A stretch of 40,010 nucleotides of DNA from a virus, in the IMG/VR virus record IMGVR_UViG_3300037189_022718, positions 1-40,010 of that record; one strand, given 5' to 3'. Below, one piece after another: positions 1-39,908 of the stretch (positions are counted from its first letter, which is position 1; each line of letters begins with the position of its first letter). A program made the position numbers and the translations under genes. The notes beneath the pieces are model-generated. The model was not told the origin of the DNA and made no database searches. It saw only the letters and a program-made list of their open reading frames with translations.

Positions 1-87
1 TATTTCAATTCCTACTTTTCCTACATTCCTACATCTACTACTAACTACCTGAAAATCAATTCAATTGAAAACAAAAGCCTGTAGGAA
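1..87. repeat. Terminal direct repeat, left copy
   Basis: These 87 bases are identical to bases 39924-40010. An exact end-to-end repeat of one assembler k-mer length is the usual mark of a circular molecule written out as a linear contig. The repeat therefore probably exists once in the real genome, and the sequence around base 1 is continuous with the end of the helicase gene. A true short terminal repeat in the virion DNA cannot be excluded from sequence alone. Confidence 0.92.
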
Positions 88-1334: not shown

Positions 1335-1363
1335 ACAAAAATTCCCCGGACGCTGAACAACTC

Positions 1364-1423
1364 CATGTTGAATGCGCATCCGCCGACATGAATCAACATG
1401 TATCACCGCAAAGACGTTTGCGG
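1364..1423. other. Two hairpins at the left edge of the cassette array
   Basis: The first is a perfect 8-bp inverted repeat, CATGTTGA (1364-1371) with TCAACATG (1393-1400). The second is a 7-bp stem with a four-base loop, CCGCAAA (1406-1412) with TTTGCGG (1417-1423), followed after ten bases by TTTTT. The second could be a terminator for the preceding gene. GTTGAAT at 1367-1373 fits the integron R-box consensus GTTRRRY, and GTTTGCG at 1416-1422 is a weaker fit, so the recombination point of the leftmost cassette may lie here. No complete attC can be folded in this stretch, because the spacers on the two sides are unequal. Confidence 0.5.
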
Positions 1424-1455
1424 AGTGGGGGCATTTTTAAAAACCTATTTCGATC

Positions 1456-1689
1456 ATGGTGCATCCAAACATTGACCTTGACAAACTTATTGAGCAGCTT
1501 GAAAGCATCGGCTTTGAAGCTATCACAAAGCTGCAATTCAGGCGTGGCTTTGTGGATGTTCGGATCGTGAACGGACTTATACCTGACGGCATTGACTTTG
1601 TGCCTGATGTATTTTTTCAGGTAACGGTATGGAATGGGGACAATGAAGGGAAATTCATTTGCCAAATAGATCAACTTTTTATAGACTAA
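1456..1689 (+). CDS. Cassette A protein, unknown function
   Basis: This encodes 77 residues. The predicted fold is a short N-terminal helix followed by beta strands rich in aromatic and acidic residues. I do not recognise the family. The TAA stop sits inside the R'' box of the following attC-like site (GACTAAC), a layout common in integron cassettes where coding sequence runs right up to the recombination site. The leader is T/A-rich with no Shine-Dalgarno sequence, which suits expression in a Bacteroidota host. There is no obvious promoter, so transcription probably reads in from the upstream phage genes. Confidence 0.65.
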   Translation: MVHPNIDLDKLIEQLESIGFEAITKLQFRRGFVDVRIVNGLIPDGIDFVPDVFFQVTVWNGDNEGKFICQIDQLFID

Positions 1690-1748
1690 CTGAGGCATGA
1701 ACGCCGTGCGACTATGTAGGGAGCATGGGCGGCCATGCTGGGTTAGCC
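1684..1748. other. attC: attC-like site A
   Basis: R'' is GACTAAC (1684-1690) and R' is GTTAGCC (1742-1748), with CTAAC pairing to GTTAG. The spacers are TGAG on the left and TGG on the right and do not pair. The inner L boxes GCATG and CATGC pair, then CGCC pairs with GGCG and TGC with GCA around a loop. The left arm carries an extra unpaired A after the L box, like the extrahelical bases that orient attC recognition by IntI. The fold was done by eye. Confidence 0.85.
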
Positions 1749-1774
1749 GAATCCTTAACATTAAAAACATCACA

Positions 1775-2002
1775 ATGATTAATAGAATCAAATCGCTCGA
1801 TTCCGCCGAATTTTTAGGCGCAACTTGGAGTAAAACAGGGTTTAGTATGCACATTCTTGAAATAGGAATGAAACTACGACAAAACCCGAATGACAAAAGC
1901 GACCTATCTAATTATTCAAAAAAGCCGTTATTGTCTATTTCCTTGTACAAAAGGAGATTGCATATCCGAATGCTCTTCTTTATATTTTTCACTATCGGCT
2001 AA
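1775..2002 (+). CDS. Cassette B small protein, possibly frameshifted
   Basis: This reads 75 residues from ATG 1775, the first start clear of the upstream attC. The TAA stop lies in the R'' box of attC B. The first 50 residues look like an ordinary small protein, whereas the last 25 are basic then hydrophobic and less protein-like. At 1918-1924 the codons contain A AAA AAG, the dnaX-type slippery heptamer. A -1 shift there continues 29 codons to a TGA at 2011-2013 and gives a more convincing amphipathic end, total 79 residues. Either programmed frameshifting or a one-base deletion in the A run could explain this. Function is unknown. Confidence 0.5.
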   Translation: MINRIKSLDSAEFLGATWSKTGFSMHILEIGMKLRQNPNDKSDLSNYSKKPLLSISLYKRRLHIRMLFFIFFTIG

Positions 2003-2062
2003 AAGGTGCATGACTGCAAGTGCTGACGCTTAGGAAGTATTGACAGCCATGCAGGGTTAGCA
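1997..2062. other. attC: attC-like site B
   Basis: R'' is GGCTAAA (1997-2003) and R' is GTTAGCA (2056-2062), with CTAA pairing to TTAG. Short unpaired spacers follow, then the L boxes TGCATG and CATGCA pair perfectly. Inside these, CTG pairs with CAG after a one-base mismatch. The R'' last A instead of C makes this the weakest R box of the five. The R'' end TCGGCTAA is the exact reverse complement of the first eight bases of cassette B (TTAGCCGA at 1743). Confidence 0.82.
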
Positions 2063-2075
2063 GCATTCTAATATC

Positions 2076-2789
2076 ATGAAAAAACTCCTCGATGTATACA
2101 GCGGTGCAGGACTTGCGGCAATTGGCTACAAGCAATCCGGTTTTCATGTCACAGGTGTTGACAATGAGAAAAAAACTTGCTACGCTGGTGATACCTGGAT
2201 CCAGGCGGATGCGCTGGAAATATTGGCCGATGTAAATTTCTGCCGTCAATTTGATGCAATTCACGCAAGCCCGCCATGCCAGAAATACAGCCAGTCAACG
2301 GCGATGTTTCGAGCAGCGGGGAAAGTCTATGCTGATTTGATTGAGCCGACCCGCGAAGCACTTGAATTGATAGGGCTGCCATACATAATTGAGAACGTGC
2401 CTACTGCACCGGTTCGGCCTGATATTGTTCTACACGGATGGATGTTCGGCCTCAATGTGATGCGCAAGCGACATTTTGAACTTGGTAATTGGTGGATGAT
2501 GCAACCAGGTGTGAGCAAGCGGATTGGGTCGGTTAAGGAGGGGGATTTTTGTACGATAATAGGGAAACAAGGCTACCGAAAATACAAAGGGTTGCCGAAA
2601 AACTGGAGGCCGAAGTTTGACCAGGGTAGCGGGATAAAAACCTGGCACTTCGCCATGGGAATACCGATTCAATACAAGTTCAAGGATGTGGAAATTTCCG
2701 AAGGCATTCCACCAGCCTACACAGAATACATTGGCGGCTACCTTTCCGAGTACCTGGATCGAGTGGCCACACTTTCACTTGTCGGCTAA
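2076..2789 (+). CDS. Cassette C: short DNA (cytosine-5-)-methyltransferase
   Basis: This encodes 237 residues of the C5-cytosine methyltransferase class, which moves a methyl group from S-adenosylmethionine to cytosine in DNA. Motif I (DVYSGAGLAAIG, residues 6-17) is the AdoMet loop. Motif IV SPPCQ (65-69) holds catalytic Cys68, and motif VI ENV (106-108) is present. It is shorter than typical restriction-modification enzymes (over 300 residues), with little room for a target-recognition domain, like compact phage-encoded versions. No restriction enzyme is adjacent. Its TAA stop lies in the R'' box of attC C, so it was acquired as an integron cassette. The likely role is masking phage DNA from host restriction or altering host methylation; this is inference. 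Confidence 0.85.
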   Translation: MKKLLDVYSGAGLAAIGYKQSGFHVTGVDNEKKTCYAGDTWIQADALEILADVNFCRQFDAIHASPPCQKYSQSTAMFRAAGKVYADLIEPTREALELIGLPYIIENVPTAPVRPDIVLHGWMFGLNVMRKRHFELGNWWMMQPGVSKRIGSVKEGDFCTIIGKQGYRKYKGLPKNWRPKFDQGSGIKTWHFAMGIPIQYKFKDVEISEGIPPAYTEYIGGYLSEYLDRVATLSLVG

Positions 2790-2848
2790 CTTATGCGCCC
2801 ACGACGGGCGCGAGCATAGCGCGGCTGTACGGGGGCGCGGCGTTATGC
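2784..2848. other. attC: attC-like site C
   Basis: R'' is GGCTAAC (2784-2790) and R' is GTTATGC (2842-2848), with TAAC pairing to GTTA. The spacers are TTAT on the left and GGC on the right. The L boxes GCGCC and GGCGC pair, followed by a G/C-rich imperfect stem. The mismatch between the outer bases of R'' and R' is expected, because everything after the G of R' belongs to the next cassette (D). The site is much more G/C-rich than its surroundings. Confidence 0.82.
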
Positions 2849-2878
2849 GGATTTTTAACCCCGGTAATTTTTCATCAA

Positions 2879-3118
2879 ATGACATCTGTTGAAACTAAAC
2901 AAACAGAAAGTGGAGGTTGGATATGTTGTTGCACTCATAACGGGTATGACTACTGGGAGGCAGGGGATACAGTTCGAGAGGCACGAAGTAGATTAGTGAC
3001 AAGATTGAAAATAGATCGTTCAGAATTAAAGTTTGAGCGAAAAAGAATATATAAACACAAAGCAAGGCATCCTGAACCGCAAGTCCAATATGCTCGGAAT
3101 CGAATAGATAACCTATAA
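2879..3118 (+). CDS. Cassette D small protein, unknown function
   Basis: This encodes 79 residues. It has a cysteine cluster (ICCC, near residue 15), an aromatic patch and a strongly basic, charged C-terminal half that is probably helical. This could suit nucleic-acid binding, but no family is recognised. Its leader (TTTTTAACC, then TAATTTTTCATCAAA running into the ATG) closely matches the leader of the native phage gene at 34819, although the proteins are unrelated. An opposite-strand reading frame at 2895-3146 overlaps it. I prefer the plus strand because cassette genes normally point toward their attC. Confidence 0.6.
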   Translation: MTSVETKQTESGGWICCCTHNGYDYWEAGDTVREARSRLVTRLKIDRSELKFERKRIYKHKARHPEPQVQYARNRIDNL

Positions 3119-3123
3119 TTCTC

Positions 3124-3210
3124 GCATAACGTTGGCACTCACGCACACCGCCGCCCGCGTTGGCTTTGAGTTAGGCTTTGGCGGAGGTTGGCGGGAGTGC
3201 GTTGTTCTGC
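3124..3210. other. attC: attC-like site D
   Basis: At 87 bp this is the longest site of the array. R'' is GCATAAC (3124-3130) and R' is GTTCTGC (3204-3210). The L boxes GCACTC and GAGTGC pair perfectly, CGC pairs with GCG and CCGCC pairs with GGCGG further in. The spacers are GTTG and GTT. The R'' end CGCATAA is the exact reverse complement of the first seven bases of cassette D (TTATGCG at 2843). A second GTT at 3201 could shift the cut point three bases left, but the match of cassette E to its own R'' supports 3204. Confidence 0.83.
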
Positions 3211-3229
3211 ACATTATTTACTATTCAAT

Positions 3230-4048
3230 ATGGCACGTCTTATATCTTTTTCGGGTGGTCGGTCGTCGGCAATGATGTTGAAAATCTTGCTTGACAACGG
3301 TTTGTTGCAGCCCGACGATTACATACTTTTTGCGAACACGGGCAAGGAACGCCCCGAAACGCTTGATTTTGTCCACGAGGTTGAAACCCGTTGGAACGTG
3401 CCGATTATTTGGATTGAAGGCACGTTCTGCGAATACGATTTGAGCGAGGAAACGATGGTTTCTTCGGTCGGGTTTCGGGTCGTGGATTATTCAACGGCGG
3501 CGCGGCACGGCGAACCGTTCGCGGAAATGATTGATTGGATAAATTGTGGGCGCGTCCCGTCGCGGAACGCTCGTTTTTGCACGAAATATTTGAAAATCGT
3601 GCCGATGCAACGATTTTTGGAAAGCATTGGCATCGCTGAATTTGATACCGTGATGGGCATCCGCTTTGACGAACCGAACCGCTACCGAAAATATAAGGGC
3701 GACGGCTCGTTTCCACTCGTTGATTTTAAAATTACCGAGGCGGACGTTTTTCGTTTTTGGTCGGCTCAAAACTTCGACCTGAATTTGAAGCAATACGAGG
3801 GCAACTGCGATTTGTGCCACCTCAAAAGCCTTAAAAAAATCAAAACGATTATCGCCGAGCAAGGCGAAAAAGTGGCGGATTGGTGGATTGAGCAAGAGAA
3901 AAAAACGAACAGCACGTTTTTTTCGGACGGCTTGGATTTTTCTACTTTGGTTGAAATTGCAACCAACCGCAAGTTTTCGAGGGCTTTGGACGTGCGAAGT
4001 TTGAAAGAACACGACTTGTTTTCAATCTCCTGTTTTTGCGGGGATTGA
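3230..4048 (+). CDS. Cassette E: PAPS-reductase-family PP-loop protein
   Basis: This encodes 272 residues. ATG 3230 places the PP-loop motif SFSGGRSS (residues 5-12) at the normal N-terminal position; an upstream TTG at 3188 would lie in the attC and is rejected. The PP-loop binds the adenylyl group in phosphoadenosine-phosphosulfate reductases and relatives. Conserved-looking cysteines follow: one in RFCTKYLK, a CDLC pair and a terminal CFC, suggesting an Fe-S or Zn site as in thiolation-type members. Codon use favours GCG/GAA and differs from neighbouring phage genes, consistent with transfer. Possible roles are sulfur metabolism, nucleic-acid thiolation or another PP-loop reaction; the sequence does not decide. 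Confidence 0.82.
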   Translation: MARLISFSGGRSSAMMLKILLDNGLLQPDDYILFANTGKERPETLDFVHEVETRWNVPIIWIEGTFCEYDLSEETMVSSVGFRVVDYSTAARHGEPFAEMIDWINCGRVPSRNARFCTKYLKIVPMQRFLESIGIAEFDTVMGIRFDEPNRYRKYKGDGSFPLVDFKITEADVFRFWSAQNFDLNLKQYEGNCDLCHLKSLKKIKTIIAEQGEKVADWWIEQEKKTNSTFFSDGLDFSTLVEIATNRKFSRALDVRSLKEHDLFSISCFCGD

Positions 4049-4074
4049 TACTTATTATTTTGATTTTTAATTGT

Positions 4075-4139
4075 GCAGAACTCAAAGCCCAACGAAGTCC
4101 ACCCGCATAGGGTGGATTCTCGTTGGGCAGCAGTTAGCC
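4075..4139. other. attC: attC-like site E, right end of the array
   Basis: This is the best-folded site. R'' is GCAGAAC (4075-4081) and R' is GTTAGCC (4133-4139). After spacers TCAAA and AGCA, the L boxes GCCCAACGA and TCGTTGGGC pair over 9 bp. An AG/TTC bulge then leaves one extra base on one arm, followed by a 7-bp stem TCCACCC/GGGTGGA and a five-base loop. The R'' end TGTGCAGAA is the exact reverse complement of the first nine bases of cassette E (TTCTGCACA at 3205). Sequence after 4133 should be the native phage flank. Confidence 0.9.
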
Positions 4140-4188
4140 ACCCCCAACTGTCCTATCCCCACCCAAATCCCCCCCCGATATTCGGCCC

Positions 4189-4674
4189 ATGAAAAAGGCC
4201 CAACTCATCCGGCAATACTTCGAAACCCACACGCTAGGCATCCTAACAGCCCTGGACGACAAAGGCAACGCCACCTTCCAATGCCAAATCCTAGAGCTCC
4301 CATGGAAGGACAACGAACGCCAAATCAGCTGCATTCCAGAGGGTATCTACCCCGTAAAAGAGCGCCGTACCGACAAGTTTGGCCGTCATTACCACATTCT
4401 TAATGTGCCGGATCGGGATTACATCCTGCAGCATCCCGGCAATTATACCGCTCAGATCAGAGGCTGCCAGCTTACCGGATCCAAATTCACTAACCTCAAT
4501 GTAGACGCCATTCCAGACATCACAGCGTCCCGTAAAACGCTGGATGTACTCCTCAAATCCCTGGGCAAAGAATACACCCTATACATCGGCAGCTTCGAAG
4601 CCCCTACCCATCCGCACACCATTTCACCGGCTAAATACTGGGCAGATCAGCTTCAAAAACCAACCCCCGATTAA
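4189..4674 (+). CDS. DUF5675-type phage protein
   Basis: This encodes 161 residues. The central signature (ELPWKDN, then SCIPEGIYPV, then a VPDR..IL.HPGN block and a conserved GC) matches what I know of the DUF5675 family, found in phages and prophages and not biochemically defined. It sometimes sits near lysis or tail genes, so a cell-wall or virion-associated role is possible but unproven. It is the first native gene right of the cassette array, and its leader is unusually C-rich (4134-4188). Four bases separate it from the next gene, so they are probably co-transcribed. Confidence 0.8.
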   Translation: MKKAQLIRQYFETHTLGILTALDDKGNATFQCQILELPWKDNERQISCIPEGIYPVKERRTDKFGRHYHILNVPDRDYILQHPGNYTAQIRGCQLTGSKFTNLNVDAIPDITASRKTLDVLLKSLGKEYTLYIGSFEAPTHPHTISPAKYWADQLQKPTPD

Positions 4675-30914: not shown

Positions 30915-31961
30915 ATGGATTTAGTTTTCAAAGTCATCACCGCCCCTACTCCAACGGTACCACAGGTACAGGACACTACATTTCAGGAGCACTACTCCGG
31001 CGTTAACCGATCCATGGCATGGGATGAAATTACGCCTGGGATCAGGCAGGCCACCGAGCAGTACGTGTTGGATTTTATTGGCGAGGATTTCTACAATGAC
31101 CTGGCAGCGATGTACCAGGCAGGCACTACGCTGTCTGATGAGCAGAAAAAAACGCTCGAACTGCTGCAAGACTGCATCGCCAACTATGCCATTTACCACA
31201 TTTTGCCCGAGAAACGGAGCATATTGGAGAGCCTTGGAGTGGTAGAGAATACTCCGCAGGGTGGATCAAGCCCCGCAGCGTACCCGATTTACAAGGAGAA
31301 GCGGAGGGCAGCCCTTGAAAATGGAGACAAATTTCTGGATCGGCTGCTCAGTTATATGGAAAAACAGGTAACCGCAGGGGATACAGGGTTTGATATGTGG
31401 AAGGAATCCAGCGCATACACATTGAAAACCTGTGACTTTTTCCGGCATACCAGCGAGCTGGATGAGTACCTGAACATTCAGAACAGCCGCAGATCCTTCA
31501 TCTCGCTGACCCGATACATGAAGCAAATCGAGGAAGATGTGATTCGGCCAATCATTTGCGACGACCTGTATGCGCTCGCCGTGGCTACTACTCCACTGGA
31601 AGCAGAGGCCAAACTTTTGCCGATGATCAAAAAAGCGGTAGCCTATTTGGGTGCAGCTGAGGCTATTCCTCACCACCGAATCGTGATCGATGGCGATGGT
31701 TTCCGTGTCGTCAGCCAGACAGATGGCTGGGATGATCGTCGGAACATGACCAACAATGTCCATGAAACTGCTATTCAAGCACTGGCCACACGGTGCCAGG
31801 AGCAAGGCCGGAGGGCTGTAGCGAAGCTTGTCCAGTTCCTTGAGGATAATATTGCTGACTATCCTGACTATGAGAACTCAACTTGCCGGACAAAGCCTGT
31901 GGATAAGGCACACAGCATTCGGCAGGCGAGTGATGGGATTGGTGCGGTGGGGTTTTTCTAA
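30915..31961 (+). CDS. Probable head-tail joining (neck) protein, DUF6712-like
   Basis: This encodes 348 residues, mostly helical. An early segment (WDEITPGIRQATEQYVLDFIG) and a duplicated helical architecture resemble a family of Bacteroidota-phage proteins that I believe is DUF6712; the name is from memory and not certain. Its isolated position after the terminase and behind its own gap suggests a late structural protein in a separate transcript. It converges with the integrase gene, overlapping its stop by about three bases. Confidence 0.7.
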   Translation: MDLVFKVITAPTPTVPQVQDTTFQEHYSGVNRSMAWDEITPGIRQATEQYVLDFIGEDFYNDLAAMYQAGTTLSDEQKKTLELLQDCIANYAIYHILPEKRSILESLGVVENTPQGGSSPAAYPIYKEKRRAALENGDKFLDRLLSYMEKQVTAGDTGFDMWKESSAYTLKTCDFFRHTSELDEYLNIQNSRRSFISLTRYMKQIEEDVIRPIICDDLYALAVATTPLEAEAKLLPMIKKAVAYLGAAEAIPHHRIVIDGDGFRVVSQTDGWDDRRNMTNNVHETAIQALATRCQEQGRRAVAKLVQFLEDNIADYPDYENSTCRTKPVDKAHSIRQASDGIGAVGFF

Positions 31962-33160
31962 AATTCCCCAGGTAAAGCAAATATAACCCCAGAGAAATCC
32001 CGAACATCCTTATTCACCACGCCAAGCGACTGCAAATACCGCTGCGTGGTGGACAAGGATTTGTGCCGCAAATGCTTCTGGATCGCCACAATATCCATAC
32101 CGGACTTAACCATGGCGATCGCTCCAGTATCCTTCCAGCTGTAAGCTGAATACCCTTCAATGGTAGCCAGCATCCCAGCCTTCAACATCACGTGCAGCAT
32201 TTCTCTGAATCGATCGCTGATTGTATTCCGGCCAACGCACTGCTTTGGGTGCGGCTTCAAGCCCAAACCAAACACCAGGTAAGAGGCCGGGACCTTATCC
32301 AGTTCAAACGCCCGAAGCGTCGGGACCACACTGGTGGGAATGGTGATGAAGGCCCGATCCTTGTTCTTAGTCTGGTCCCCACCCATGATGATCAGTCCAC
32401 GATCCAGGTCAATGTCCCGGATCCGCAACCTCCGCAGCTCACTCAGTCGCAATCCACAGTGACTGATCAGCACGATGGCCAGATATACCATCCGGTTATG
32501 GTGGTACACGTACCTGGCAATGGTCGTGGAATCCCCCTGCTCGAATGGATGCCGTAGTTTCTCCTCCTCTTTTCGTGGTTTATGGTTGGCAAAAGGGTTG
32601 TCTTTGATGTACTCCCGCTCATGAAGCTCATAGAACAACGACCGCATGTTGATGATGTAGTTGTTATAAGTGCGGTTTGACACCGGCTTACCCTTCCGGT
32701 TTTTCTTTGTCAGCAACACATCATCCAAAAAAAGCTTCGCCTTTGGCCGGTCAAAGGCGGCAATGCACAGCCCTTCCCACTTCTGGCCGCGTATCCACTC
32801 CGTAAATATGTTGTTGAATGAATTGTAAGTGATCCGAGTATGCTCCCGGTCAGACTGAAGCTTGAACTTCAGCGCCACTTGCATAGCATCCAGTATGTTG
32901 GTGCTACCCAGCACGGATACTACCTGCTCTTTTTTTCTGGAGACATCCGACCACTCCTTCATTTTCTCCTGAAGGATGAACTGCGCACGCTCTTCCCGGC
33001 GCACTGGATCGGTAATGAAGGAAGCTCGATTCAGGTCGAATGTTTTGCGGACCCGAATCCGGTCTGTACTACCTGGTACAAACTCCTCCCATTCAATAAG
33101 CCATTTCCAACCTTTTAGAATTCGTGGAGGCTTGAGGTAAGCGAACTGAGGTATGGACAT
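31958..33160 (-). CDS. int: Tyrosine recombinase, phage integrase
   Basis: This encodes 400 residues, minus strand, from ATG 33160; the frame is open to 33289 but the extension is not integrase-like. It has an N-terminal arm-binding-like domain, a SAM-like middle, and a C-terminal catalytic domain with Arg238 (in GLRLSELRRL) and nucleophile Tyr375 (in TTQRYLQS). The usual HxxR box is YSWK (residues 340-343), a variant seen in Bacteroidota integrases. It inserts the phage at attB using the attP candidate just upstream. It is not an IntI: I see no IntI-specific extra domain, and it is coupled to phage lysogeny genes. Confidence 0.9.
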   Translation of the reverse strand: MSIPQFAYLKPPRILKGWKWLIEWEEFVPGSTDRIRVRKTFDLNRASFITDPVRREERAQFILQEKMKEWSDVSRKKEQVVSVLGSTNILDAMQVALKFKLQSDREHTRITYNSFNNIFTEWIRGQKWEGLCIAAFDRPKAKLFLDDVLLTKKNRKGKPVSNRTYNNYIINMRSLFYELHEREYIKDNPFANHKPRKEEEKLRHPFEQGDSTTIARYVYHHNRMVYLAIVLISHCGLRLSELRRLRIRDIDLDRGLIIMGGDQTKNKDRAFITIPTSVVPTLRAFELDKVPASYLVFGLGLKPHPKQCVGRNTISDRFREMLHVMLKAGMLATIEGYSAYSWKDTGAIAMVKSGMDIVAIQKHLRHKSLSTTQRYLQSLGVVNKDVRDFSGVIFALPGEF

Positions 33161-33187
33161 TTTTTTTTTGGACAAGCTGTGTACAAC

Positions 33188-33389
33188 TTGCCAAAACATT
33201 GCCAATGTGCTTAATGCTAAAATACCGCGCAACTCTTTGTAAATCAAAGAATTAACGCGGTATTTAGTGCGGGAAGCGAGAAGGCGCACCCCTCACGATA
33301 CCCCCAAAAACCACGATTCAACCCACCAACAACCACCCTAAACCCCTCAAAATCGCAGCCCCAGCAACATTCTGGCAATCTTCTGGCAA
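33188..33389. other. attP: Candidate attP with paired arm sites
   Basis: Two TTGCCA hexamers (33188-33193, 33199-33204) have an 11-base period. Two reverse-complement copies TGGCAA (33373-33378, 33384-33389) have the same 11-base period, facing them. They flank about 170 bases between the integrase start and the next gene and enclose strong inverted repeats. Paired, phased arm sites around a core are the layout of tyrosine-integrase attP sites. The core itself cannot be fixed without the host attB. Confidence 0.6.
33220..33265. repeat. Long perfect inverted repeat near the integrase
   Basis: AAATACCGCG (33220-33229) pairs perfectly with CGCGGTATTT (33256-33265). An inner CTTTG/CAAAG stem makes a two-tier cruciform. 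A smaller palindrome ACATTG-C-CAATGT lies at 33197-33209. The structure sits between the paired arm sites and could be the integrase core or a bidirectional transcription stop. It lacks the T tract of a terminator on either strand. Confidence 0.6.
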
Positions 33390-37098: not shown

Positions 37099-38004
37099 AT
37101 GCTACAAAACATCGAAATCTCGGCATTCAAATCTGCTACGAGTACCGAACCCACGACGGTTTCACTATCGGCATTCCTGACAAGTACACGCCACCGAGAG
37201 AAAATACTTGCGCTCCGCGCTGAATCCGAGAAAAAGAAGCGAGATGAATTGAAGAAAACCCTGCCAGCTGCCACCATTTCCGGAACATTCATTCGCAGAG
37301 CTGCCGGTCAAATACAATCGTACAACGGTCTGGTTTGTCTTGATTTCGACGGTGCCGACAACCCTGCAGTTACACCCGCAGAGATGAAGTACATTCTTAG
37401 CGCATTCCCGGAAGTGGCCTATGCAGCAGTCAGCGTCGGTGGGGCAGGGGTGTTTGCAATCGTGCCCACCAACAATCGGGACCCGACCAGGCACGCAGCT
37501 GTAGTGGATCTGCTCGGCATGGCCACCAAAGCGCACGGCCTAGTATACGATCGTGCCTGCAAGGATGTCAGCCGCCTGCGCTTTGTATCCTACGATCCGG
37601 ATGCTTTCTGGAATCAATCGCCAAAGGAATTCGATACAGACTTCCTTTTCCAGATTCAACAGCCACCAACCAATTTCAGACCACCCCGGGCAATGGTATT
37701 CAGACAGCCACCAGAAAAACCGGCCAATGATACCCGCAGCAAAGTAGAAGCCTATATCCAGGCATTGGAAGGGAGCTGCCGCGATGTGACAGACAACTAT
37801 GACGACTGGCTAAAAATAGGCTTCGCTCTGGCCAGTGAGTTTGGAAATGGGGGCGAGGATCTGTTCCATAGGGTCAGCCAGTTCAATCCAAAATACAATC
37901 CTCAGGAAGCGGCCAAAAAGTATGAAAACGCCTTGAAAAATGGGAAGTCCGTCAAAATCGGGACCTTCTTCAAAATCCTTCACGATCAAAACATCCGGCT
38001 ATGA
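37099..38004 (+). CDS. VirE-N/BT4734-type primase with PriCT-like C-terminus
   Basis: This encodes 301 residues. LDFDGADN (residues 81-88, metal-binding Asp82 and Asp84) and CKDVSRLRFVSYDP (154-167) are the hallmarks of the primase-polymerase-like BT4734/VirE-N family of Bacteroidota mobile elements. Residues about 213-300 resemble the PriCT-2 helical domain (YDDWLKIGFALASEF) that follows such primases. It would lay RNA or DNA primers for phage replication. Its stop overlaps the start of the helicase gene by four bases, so the two are coupled. Confidence 0.85.
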   Translation: MLQNIEISAFKSATSTEPTTVSLSAFLTSTRHREKILALRAESEKKKRDELKKTLPAATISGTFIRRAAGQIQSYNGLVCLDFDGADNPAVTPAEMKYILSAFPEVAYAAVSVGGAGVFAIVPTNNRDPTRHAAVVDLLGMATKAHGLVYDRACKDVSRLRFVSYDPDAFWNQSPKEFDTDFLFQIQQPPTNFRPPRAMVFRQPPEKPANDTRSKVEAYIQALEGSCRDVTDNYDDWLKIGFALASEFGNGGEDLFHRVSQFNPKYNPQEAAKKYENALKNGKSVKIGTFFKILHDQNIRL

Positions 38005-39908
38005 AATCACTGACCGACACAGCGAAAGAACTTCTTTCGAAACCTGCTGAGGCCGGAATACAAAACCAACCATCCAACCCTGATACCACCCAGCAAGAGA
38101 TAGATGCCTTTGACAATGATGACCTAAAGTTCCTGAAAAGCCACCTGCGCAGACTTGGAGTAGATGCAGATGAAGCCATTGACTACGGATTCTATGAGTA
38201 CCGCAACCGATACTGGATGCTTCGCCGTGGAGACACCTTCGAGAGTGTCAGCAACTTTACCATGAAGGTGCTATTCCTGATCGTTGGAGCCAACCCGAAG
38301 CGTATCGTTGAGATCAAGAACGTACATGGTAAAGCCACCACTTTGGATTTCACCATCGAGGATCTGATCAGCATCGAAAAGTTCAAGGCCAGGGTAGAAG
38401 GGCAGGGAAATTTCCTGTTCGAAGGAAAGGCAACCGATCTTGCACGGATCAAAAACAGCCTGTTCAACAAAGAAAAGGCATCCGTGGAGATCAGCCGGCT
38501 CGGCCAGTACAAGGATCGATTCTTCGCCTGGGCCAATGGCATCTACGATGGCAAAGACTTCTACCACGTGGACGACAAAGGCATGGTCGAAGTGGGCAAA
38601 GAGCACTACTACATTCCAGTGTTCGGTAGCACCAGAGATGGCGACGATGAAGACCTGCGCAACTACCGACGGTTTCTGCACCGCGAAGACGCTACCACCT
38701 TCACCGAATGGGCAGAACAATTCATCCGGGTATATGGCGAAAATGGTCGCCTGGGCATTGGGTTCTTTTTCTTCTCCGTGTTCTCTGACATCATTTTTGA
38801 ACGCACCAAGGCATCCCCCATGCTGTTCCTGTTTGGACAGCGCGGATCCGGAAAGGGCACCATGGCCAACAGCCTGATGGCGCTGTTCGGCACCCCACAG
38901 GATCCGCTGATGCTCGGAGGAGCAAGCACCGTGGTTGGCTTCATGCGGAAGCTCGGGCAGTTCTCCAACGCCATTGTCTGGCTGGATGAATACAAGAATG
39001 ACATTGGGGAAAAGAAGATTGAATCCCTGAAAAACATCTGGGATAGGGTAGGCTACGAGCGTGGCGTAAAGGATTCATCCAACAAAACCCAGACCACGCC
39101 CGTAACATCCAGCGCAATCCTGTCAGGTCAGGAGATCCCAAACGTAGAGCCAGCATTATTCTCCCGAACGGTGCTGTGCGAATTCAGAGCCATGCAGCGA
39201 TCACAGCGCGAAGTAGACGACTTCAACAAGCTGCGCATCATGGAAGATGCCGGCATCACCAACGTCACACTCCAGGTACTTGCCCAGCGCGAACACATCA
39301 AGGCCGAGATATTCAAGGCATACGGCGAAGTTTCCACTGCATTGCGTGCCGCATTGGCCGAACGGGAAGTCATTGAGCGCCAGATCATCAACTACGGCAT
39401 CCTGTGTGCCACCATCATGGTGCTCGAAAAGCGCATGAAGCTACCCTTCAACAGCACCGAGTTTATTCAGCAGTGCGAGACCTATATCCTGCGCCAGAAT
39501 GATATGATGAAGCAGAGCAATGAAGTGCAGCAATTCTTCGAGATGGTGCAGTTCCTGCTGCAAAATGGTTTGATCAGCGGCGAGAAAGATATCATCATCA
39601 CAAAGGGCCTGCTAAAAGTACGGATGGTCAGCATTATTGGCCTTTACAGGGAGCACGCCAGACGGCAGGGGATGCGCCCAATGGACCGCGGAACCCTGAT
39701 GAATTACATCCAAAACTCGGAAGCATACCGGAAAGAAGAGTCCAAATTGTCATCTCACCGATTCCCCGGCCTACAAAATCCTACATCCTGCACAGTTTTC
39801 CTACAGGCCGAAATCAAGCGTTTGTACGGGGTTGACTTTGCCGACAATTTGCAAAACGTTGAAGATCAGGAACAAACGCCACAAGCGCCCCCCCAAGATG
39901 TCTTTTAA
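38001..39908 (+). CDS. SF3/D5-type replicative helicase
   Basis: This encodes 635 residues. Walker A GQRGSGKGT (279-287) and Walker B AIVWLDEY (324-331) with downstream SSAILSGQEIP (sensor-like) match the virus D5/P4-type helicase class. The N-terminal 240 residues are a DUF5906-like leader domain and the C-terminal 200 residues are helical. It unwinds DNA at the phage origin. The end of the gene contains an iteron copy (39798-39804), and the iteron cluster follows immediately on the circle, consistent with origin recognition nearby. Confidence 0.88.
   Translation: MKSLTDTAKELLSKPAEAGIQNQPSNPDTTQQEIDAFDNDDLKFLKSHLRRLGVDADEAIDYGFYEYRNRYWMLRRGDTFESVSNFTMKVLFLIVGANPKRIVEIKNVHGKATTLDFTIEDLISIEKFKARVEGQGNFLFEGKATDLARIKNSLFNKEKASVEISRLGQYKDRFFAWANGIYDGKDFYHVDDKGMVEVGKEHYYIPVFGSTRDGDDEDLRNYRRFLHREDATTFTEWAEQFIRVYGENGRLGIGFFFFSVFSDIIFERTKASPMLFLFGQRGSGKGTMANSLMALFGTPQDPLMLGGASTVVGFMRKLGQFSNAIVWLDEYKNDIGEKKIESLKNIWDRVGYERGVKDSSNKTQTTPVTSSAILSGQEIPNVEPALFSRTVLCEFRAMQRSQREVDDFNKLRIMEDAGITNVTLQVLAQREHIKAEIFKAYGEVSTALRAALAEREVIERQIINYGILCATIMVLEKRMKLPFNSTEFIQQCETYILRQNDMMKQSNEVQQFFEMVQFLLQNGLISGEKDIIITKGLLKVRMVSIIGLYREHARRQGMRPMDRGTLMNYIQNSEAYRKEESKLSSHRFPGLQNPTSCTVFLQAEIKRLYGVDFADNLQNVEDQEQTPQAPPQDVF

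Follow-up and report, generated by a model that had tools for sequence, protein, structure and literature searches.

A phage cassette array without its own integron integrase, with attC hairpins probably inverted relative to the genes

The complete IMG/VR virus record IMGVR_UViG_3300037189_022718 (40,010 bases, referred to here as the window) encodes a phage tyrosine integrase and a large terminase, and between positions 1688 and 4135 carries four small genes separated by five attC-like hairpins (Table 1). The best explanation of this region as a whole, to which we assign a probability of about 70% on the basis of sequence comparison, is a phage cassette array without an integron integrase, with attC hairpins that are inverted relative to the genes and a fixed terminal hairpin. 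As in a cluster of attC sites lacking integron integrases (CALIN), the region contains at least two attC-like hairpins, each lying between an AAC box and a GTT box, with four of the five scoring 61-75 bits against a covariance model (all four are seed sites of that model) and hairpin D scoring 20 bits. GTT and AAC are kept in most of the window's boxes and the flanking bases are variable (for example GTTCTGC, or AAA at 2001), with the strict motifs GTTRRRY and RYYYAAC matching none of the ten. The AAA that stands in for the AAC box of hairpin B (window 2001-2003) may mark that junction as a dead recombination site.

The starts of cassettes B, D and E, as delimited in the initial annotation, had been described as the reverse complements of the same cassettes' 3' ends over 8, 7 and 9 bases. 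We scored the longest prefix of each cassette start whose reverse complement lies in its own 3' region and obtained the same lengths: 8 for B (TTAGCCGA/TCGGCTAA), 7 for D (TTATGCG/CGCATAA), and 9 for E (TTCTGCACA/TGTGCAGAA), with 5 for C. The remaining combinations of starts and ends gave 3-5, except for the start of B with the end of C (8), a resemblance that the initial annotation had also pointed out, and the sequence after the array with the ends of B and C (6). Cassette C is not a full exception, because GTTAGC/GCTAAC pairs over 6 bases. At 200,000 random positions (window 4200-40010, matched distances), scores of at least 7, 8, and 9 occurred with probabilities of 0.0082, 0.0022, and 0.0006, and in 1,460 tests of 365 GTT positions at 4 distances these were 0.0103, 0.0021, and 0.0007. 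Own-end complementarity in the window is confirmed, and the outcome that had been named as speaking against it, comparable rates at randomly paired positions of this genome, did not occur. Because it has only four cassettes, the window by itself makes for a weak permutation test, in which 2 of 24 permutations of starts and ends equal the real pairing.

Related arrays were gathered through the DUF5675 gene (sister phage L002), cassette C (L038 and L039), and hairpin patterns (more viral contigs). A home-made attC scanner proved too strict, detecting one of the five window sites, and was replaced by a covariance model from 16 sites in which the outer R-box pairs were purposely set unpaired; in these sites as arrayed, the outer R-box pairs are formed in 43% of cells, compared with 84.8% for the stem. 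L064 (taken to be one array with L108, given identical model scores), L003, L041, L044, L246, L117 (from the record stretch that also gave L163), and L075 (equal to L165) were counted as duplicates, two weak matches were dropped (L169 7107 and the + strand of L245), and three sites were added by hand from weak or truncated matches (hairpin D of the window, L039 108, and L052 6679). The pooled test covered 35 units from 14 loci (13 phage and 1 bacterial, with L039 and L162 in one record). Of the 6 positions beyond GTT/AAC, a unit's own ends matched at 4.77 on average, compared with 2.80 for the start of the next unit and 2.65 (sd 0.20) for permuted ends, and none of 20,000 permutations reached the own-end value. 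Pairing with the unit's own end was better than pairing with its neighbour in 29 units, tied in 3, and worse in 3. When the attC of the circle was rebuilt, its bottom-strand fold was more stable than that of the attC in the array in 28 of the 35 units, with the preceding or the following hairpin alike. By both measures, the two ends of a cassette would restore a paired R box once joined in a circle, as expected of a CALIN.

A gene unit's start and end would complement each other because a cassette in its free circular form has to re-form a completely paired R box around the only attC hairpin it carries. The proposal in the initial annotation that the complementarity records circular intermediates is upheld insofar as the pairing tracks own ends and not array neighbours, and insofar as the rebuilt fold is mostly the more stable one; the R' and R'' labels attached to it are probably reversed, as gene swaps break at the AAC box and the hairpin asymmetry places the canonical R' on the AAC side. 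Both assignments predict own-end complementarity, which therefore cannot separate them, and since normal integron cassettes, including those of class 1, show the same pairing, it is by itself ordinary and no discovery. The pairing is demonstrated as statistics and is a general integron property, and the free circular form is what it would imply. At L042 2610-2935, the 3' box of a gene, CACAGATAAC, pairs with its own start, GTTATCTG, and is followed by ~330 bases with no recognised hairpin, possibly a decayed cassette.

The structure of the hairpins bears on their polarity. Extrahelical bases are defined as lying on the R''-L'' arm in the available part of PMC2727003, and class 1 attC sites, used as a control, agree: all 5 sites examined (4 distinct hairpins, two types) carry their bulges on the AAC arm, with an AAC-side spacer of 5 and a GTT-side spacer of 6. 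Of 50 distinct phage hairpins, 28 have a bulge on the GTT arm, 1 has it on the AAC arm, 1 has bulges on both, and 20 have none, and the AAC-side spacer is the longer one in 48. The extra bases are therefore not on the arm where canonical polarity places them, and the asymmetry of the phage hairpins is the mirror image of that of class 1 attC. Because the control shows that the spacer and bulge asymmetries are linked, the polarity of the bulges, formerly ambiguous, becomes readable. Open reading frames (ORFs) lie on the + strand of the model in 32 of 33 phage units and on the opposite strand in both units of the bacterial array G344, whose hairpins belong to the same family. Contig G048:C40, which has a real IntI (421.9 bits), was tried as a canonical control and no attC array was found there; class 1 plasmids were used instead. 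Region 1-30000 of R751, which has no integron annotation, was unused, pYKAZ004 was left out because no cassette ORF is annotated in it, and phage P12002L was left out of the polarity counts because scanning gave no clear set of sites.

A comparison of 68 sites (2,278 pairs) indicates which hairpin travels with a gene. Six phage pairs (three of them involving cassette C) are homologous before the AAC box, and in none of them is the following hairpin related, so that it is not kept with the gene as canonical polarity would have it; in phage pairs homologous after the GTT box, the hairpin is related in 3 of 6. The same counts in G344 are 1 of 2 and 15 of 15. In L108 and L215, for instance, the preceding hairpin and the gene are held in common (0.91 and 0.89) while the following hairpin reaches only 0.58. 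By our count, these patterns require at least 6 exchanges on the AAC side and at least 2 on the GTT side (cassette C in L039, and L165/L052). The first 112 and last 127 bases of record G004 recur inside the same record, where they flank two different arrays: the left identical run ends at AACGT, the right one begins exactly at AAC, and the arrays between these shared edges contain hairpins at positions 108 and 1512 of L039 in one case and at 2160, 2610, and 4373 of L162 in the other. The simplest reading is that a single phage was present in the sample with two variants of its array, exchanged at AAC at either edge, and the record would then be an assembly fork between the variants.

Cassette C allows the boundary to be followed through three phages. 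Its protein is 96% identical in L038 and L039, and the window, L038, and L039 share the gene and an identical 3' box, TTGTCGGCTAAC, after which come three unrelated hairpins (identity 0.54-0.63, compared with 0.61, sd 0.08, for random phage hairpins). Between the window and L038 the preceding hairpin, hairpin B, is 0.96 identical and the unit 0.88, and both have the start TTAGCAGC; L039 has a different preceding hairpin and the matching start TTAGCCGA. The suggestion that the R'' of cassette C had been exchanged does not hold, as its 3' box is the constant part and it is the 5' end, together with the upstream hairpin, that differs. A search of genome contigs with the cassette C protein gave a single relative (L040), near which no attC was seen by eye.

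Most phage arrays end in hairpins of one class. Hairpins with AAC followed by TC make up 17 of 18 phage array ends, compared with 1 of 33 internal sites, or 12 of 13 ends when the five from loci fetched by the terminal-class pattern (L215, L245, L238, L241, and L230) are excluded. The window and L002 have the terminal hairpin in common from AAC onward, behind different ORFs. Together, the bias in the terminal class and the breakpoints at AAC suggest that a resident recipient site occupies the right edge of the array. The sole internal site of the terminal class belongs to a tandem pair of such hairpins around one gene (L238 5978-6814). Terminal-class hairpins also occur within a Bacteroidetes metagenome-assembled genome (MAG), G001, in contigs C14 (L166) and C43 (L167), and L166 is probably in a prophage, because another part of it aligns with phage contig L108 (66.8% over 232 nt). 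Across 296 genomes from the phylum to which G001 belongs, the covariance model gave a match at E<=1e-4 under strict filters in G001 only; at the family level it gave matches in 5 of 41 genomes.

These results can be assembled into a model in which the window is a temperate phage with an integron-type cassette array, and without an integron integrase of its own. The attC hairpins would be opposite to the genes, and recombination would take place at the AAC box by each gene's stop codon, which, on the other strand, would read as the canonical R' (G|TT). Judging by the shared boundaries and the hairpin asymmetry, the mobile unit would consist of a hairpin and then a gene, and would end on its 3' side at the AAC that follows. 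Cassettes would be inserted to the left of the resident terminal hairpin, with its AAC then TC (mostly AACTCCAAGCC-like), and if they add there, only genes opposing the attC polarity would end up co-oriented with the phage genes. The enzyme is presumably an integrase supplied in trans by the host. None was found in the phage, and TIGR02249 gives no hit above its cut-off in any of 16 records including the window; a true integron integrase is present in 1 of 199 genomes of the family of G001 (G048, 421.9 bits). XerA/IntI-like tyrosine recombinases of 452-480 aa in G001 and G321 (206.8 and 202.7 bits to TIGR02249, cut-off 265) were considered for this role and rejected, as nothing links them to the arrays. 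They are encoded at L203 2721-4079 (-) and L204 1340-2782 (-) and score slightly below the NF040815 cut-off and well below that of TIGR02249. A truncated relative of these recombinases lies at L202 750-1046 (-), ~3.4 kb from a G344 hairpin.

Several observations weigh against an inverted array. No recombinase is connected to the sites, and the bulge method found no bulge in the 20 phage hairpins noted above. Of 33 gene stops, 15 overlap the AAC box and 30 are within 40 nt of it, as in ordinary cassettes, which gives the arrays a canonical look in their gene layout. The preceding hairpin is unrelated in 3 of 6 pairs, which means that the GTT side is sometimes exchanged too, and the comparisons are few and non-independent.

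An ordinary phage CALIN of canonical polarity is the most serious alternative, unlikely as we consider it to be. Its crossover would be at GTT, each gene would own the hairpin that follows it, and hairpins would turn over rapidly by mutation or separate recombination. The position of the stop codons and that of the gene starts, mostly 16-40 nt past GTT, are as in ordinary cassettes; own-end pairing is predicted equally; and the available part of PMC9892861 describes typical arrays for other phage CALINs. However, the following hairpin is unrelated in all six phage comparisons even though the compared genes are 75-90% identical, the array swap in G004 has both of its edges at AAC, and the bulge and spacer asymmetry is mirrored. 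Less probable still is that integron recombination plays no part and that the phages exchange genes, by homologous recombination or otherwise, at conserved intergenic hairpins serving as linkers or terminators. The phages concerned are mosaics, the hairpin family recurs in many of them, and no integron integrase scored above the cut-off in the 11 virus records tested. Such exchange does not predict complementarity between a unit's own start and end, and it has to contend with boundaries that coincide with the three bases of the AAC box and have unrelated hairpins to one side, as well as with stem covariation and an R-box layout that fit attC. Chance complementarity at four boundaries, to which the small number of cassettes and the equivocal permutations within the window might point, is refuted for practical purposes by the pooled 35-unit test and by random-position probabilities of 0.0006-0.008 each.

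Directly to the left of the array is a 96-base leader (window 1337-1432; L002 6915-7010) that is 96% identical in the sister phage, a conservation above that of most flanking DNA, and that includes a CCGCAAA-GACG-TTTGCGG hairpin. Inverted TTCCTACAT/ATGTAGGAA repeats lie to the left of the array region at window 3-34 and 128-159, possibly a replication or packaging signal, and a similar repeat is found at L038 1501-1640, behind a relative of the ORF at 38001-39908 of the window. An Rfam scan of the window gave nothing at gathering scores, and blastn of 1686-4150 against phage and plasmid collections gave no match.

Table 1. Features of the cassette array and its surroundings in the window. Scores in bits for hairpins are from covariance model R1 (CM R1).
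Feature	Position	Strand	Remarks
ORF left of hairpin A, 77 aa	1456-1689	+	TAA stop overlaps first AAC box (AAC at 1688)
Hairpin A, attC-like	1688-1744	+	AAC 1688-1690, stem-loop 1691-1741, GTT 1742-1744; 75.1 bits; seed-alignment site
Proposed cassette B' (hairpin A + ORF B)	1690-2002	+	Putative unit, from hairpin-linkage and boundary comparisons
ORF B, 75 aa	1775-2002	+	No family
Cassette B, initial annotation	1743-2056	+	Start TTAGCCGA complements own end TCGGCTAA
Hairpin B	2001-2058	+	AAC box is AAA (2001-2003), GTT 2056-2058; 61.2 bits; seed site
Cassette C, initial annotation	2057-2842	+	
Proposed cassette C' (hairpin B + ORF C)	2003-2789	+	Hairpin B + ORF C common to L038
ORF C, 237 aa, DNA methyltransferase-like	2076-2789	+	phrog_363, E 2.5e-25
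Hairpin C	2788-2844	+	AAC 2788-2790, GTT 2842-2844; 63.9 bits; seed site
Cassette D, initial annotation	2843-3204	+	
Proposed cassette D' (hairpin C + ORF D)	2790-3129	+	
ORF D, 79 aa	2879-3118	+	No family
Hairpin D, long variant	3128-3206	+	AAC 3128-3130, GTT 3204-3206; 20.1 bits, E 0.18; placed by hand with its boxes
Cassette E, initial annotation	3205-4133	+	
Proposed cassette E' (hairpin D + ORF E)	3130-4080	+	
ORF E, 272 aa, PAPS-reductase-like	3230-4048	+	phrog_424, E 7.5e-49
Terminal hairpin, AACTCAAAGCC class	4079-4135	+	Proposed resident recipient site; AAC 4079-4081, GTT 4133-4135; 71.3 bits; seed site
DUF5675 gene	4189-4674	+	First phage backbone gene past the array; product 96% identical in L002
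Phage tyrosine integrase	31958-33289	-	Not an integron integrase (TIGR02249 47.3 bits, cut-off 265)

If the polarity is indeed inverted, phages maintain a cassette pool of their own, whose units standard annotation delimits at the wrong box. A broader picture, for which we would give slightly better than even odds, is that a phage lineage whose host is probably a member of the Bacteroidota keeps its own pool of cassettes with attC inverted to the gene, receives them at the resident terminal hairpin, and trades arrays within living phage populations. Such a system would amount to an integron carried by the phage, powered by the host, and run in reverse. Under inverted polarity, the pair of arrays with identical flanks in G004 would be a near-snapshot of phage cassette exchange, and the cargo (an orphan methyltransferase, a PAPS-reductase-like protein, and small unknowns) is a plausible source of rapidly traded host-interaction genes. 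In open-licence PMC literature, including the available portions of PMC9892861, PMC2727003, PMC3053210, PMC2674596, and PMC1382264, we found no account of a phage cassette array in which attC runs opposite to the genes, and an array of this kind is probably new.

Among the closest known systems are the phage-borne CALINs (Qi et al. 2023, PMC9892861, in its available part), such as that of Tetrasphaera phage TJE1, which likewise combine an integrase-less attC array in a phage with methyltransferase cargo and small gene cassettes. The hairpins of TJE1 are canonical, both sites having the bulge on the AAC arm, whereas the hairpin asymmetry described here is mirrored and exchanges break at AAC. 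Class 1 cassettes (plasmids PB5, pWP2-W18-CRE-05_1, and p5098PV-IncHI2) share the complementarity of a cassette's start with its own 3' box, over 11-13 bases by eye in the three assessable cassettes, aac(6')-Il, GES, and aacA4, with aac(3)-Ib of PB5 not clear; their spacer and bulge asymmetry is the mirror image of that in the phage hairpins. Circular cassettes are excised by attC x attC recombination, according to the available part of PMC3053210, and ACID treats the attC belonging to a cassette as that of its circular form (PMC2674596, available part). The bacterial array G344, from the family of MAG G001, has homologous hairpins, and its contigs C42 and C93 match up to the AAC box and then continue into unrelated hairpins; with its genes on the opposite strand in both units, the relation of gene to attC is the usual one there, unlike in the phage array. 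A parallel to the apparent behaviour of the phage array is provided by Vibrio cholerae repeat (VCR) sites with inverted extrahelical bases, in which, according to the available part of PMC2727003, bulges on the other arm shift the recombination point to the other R box. These VCR sites are engineered laboratory constructs, unlike the natural phage array, and by analogy they offer a precedent for what the phage hairpins appear to do.

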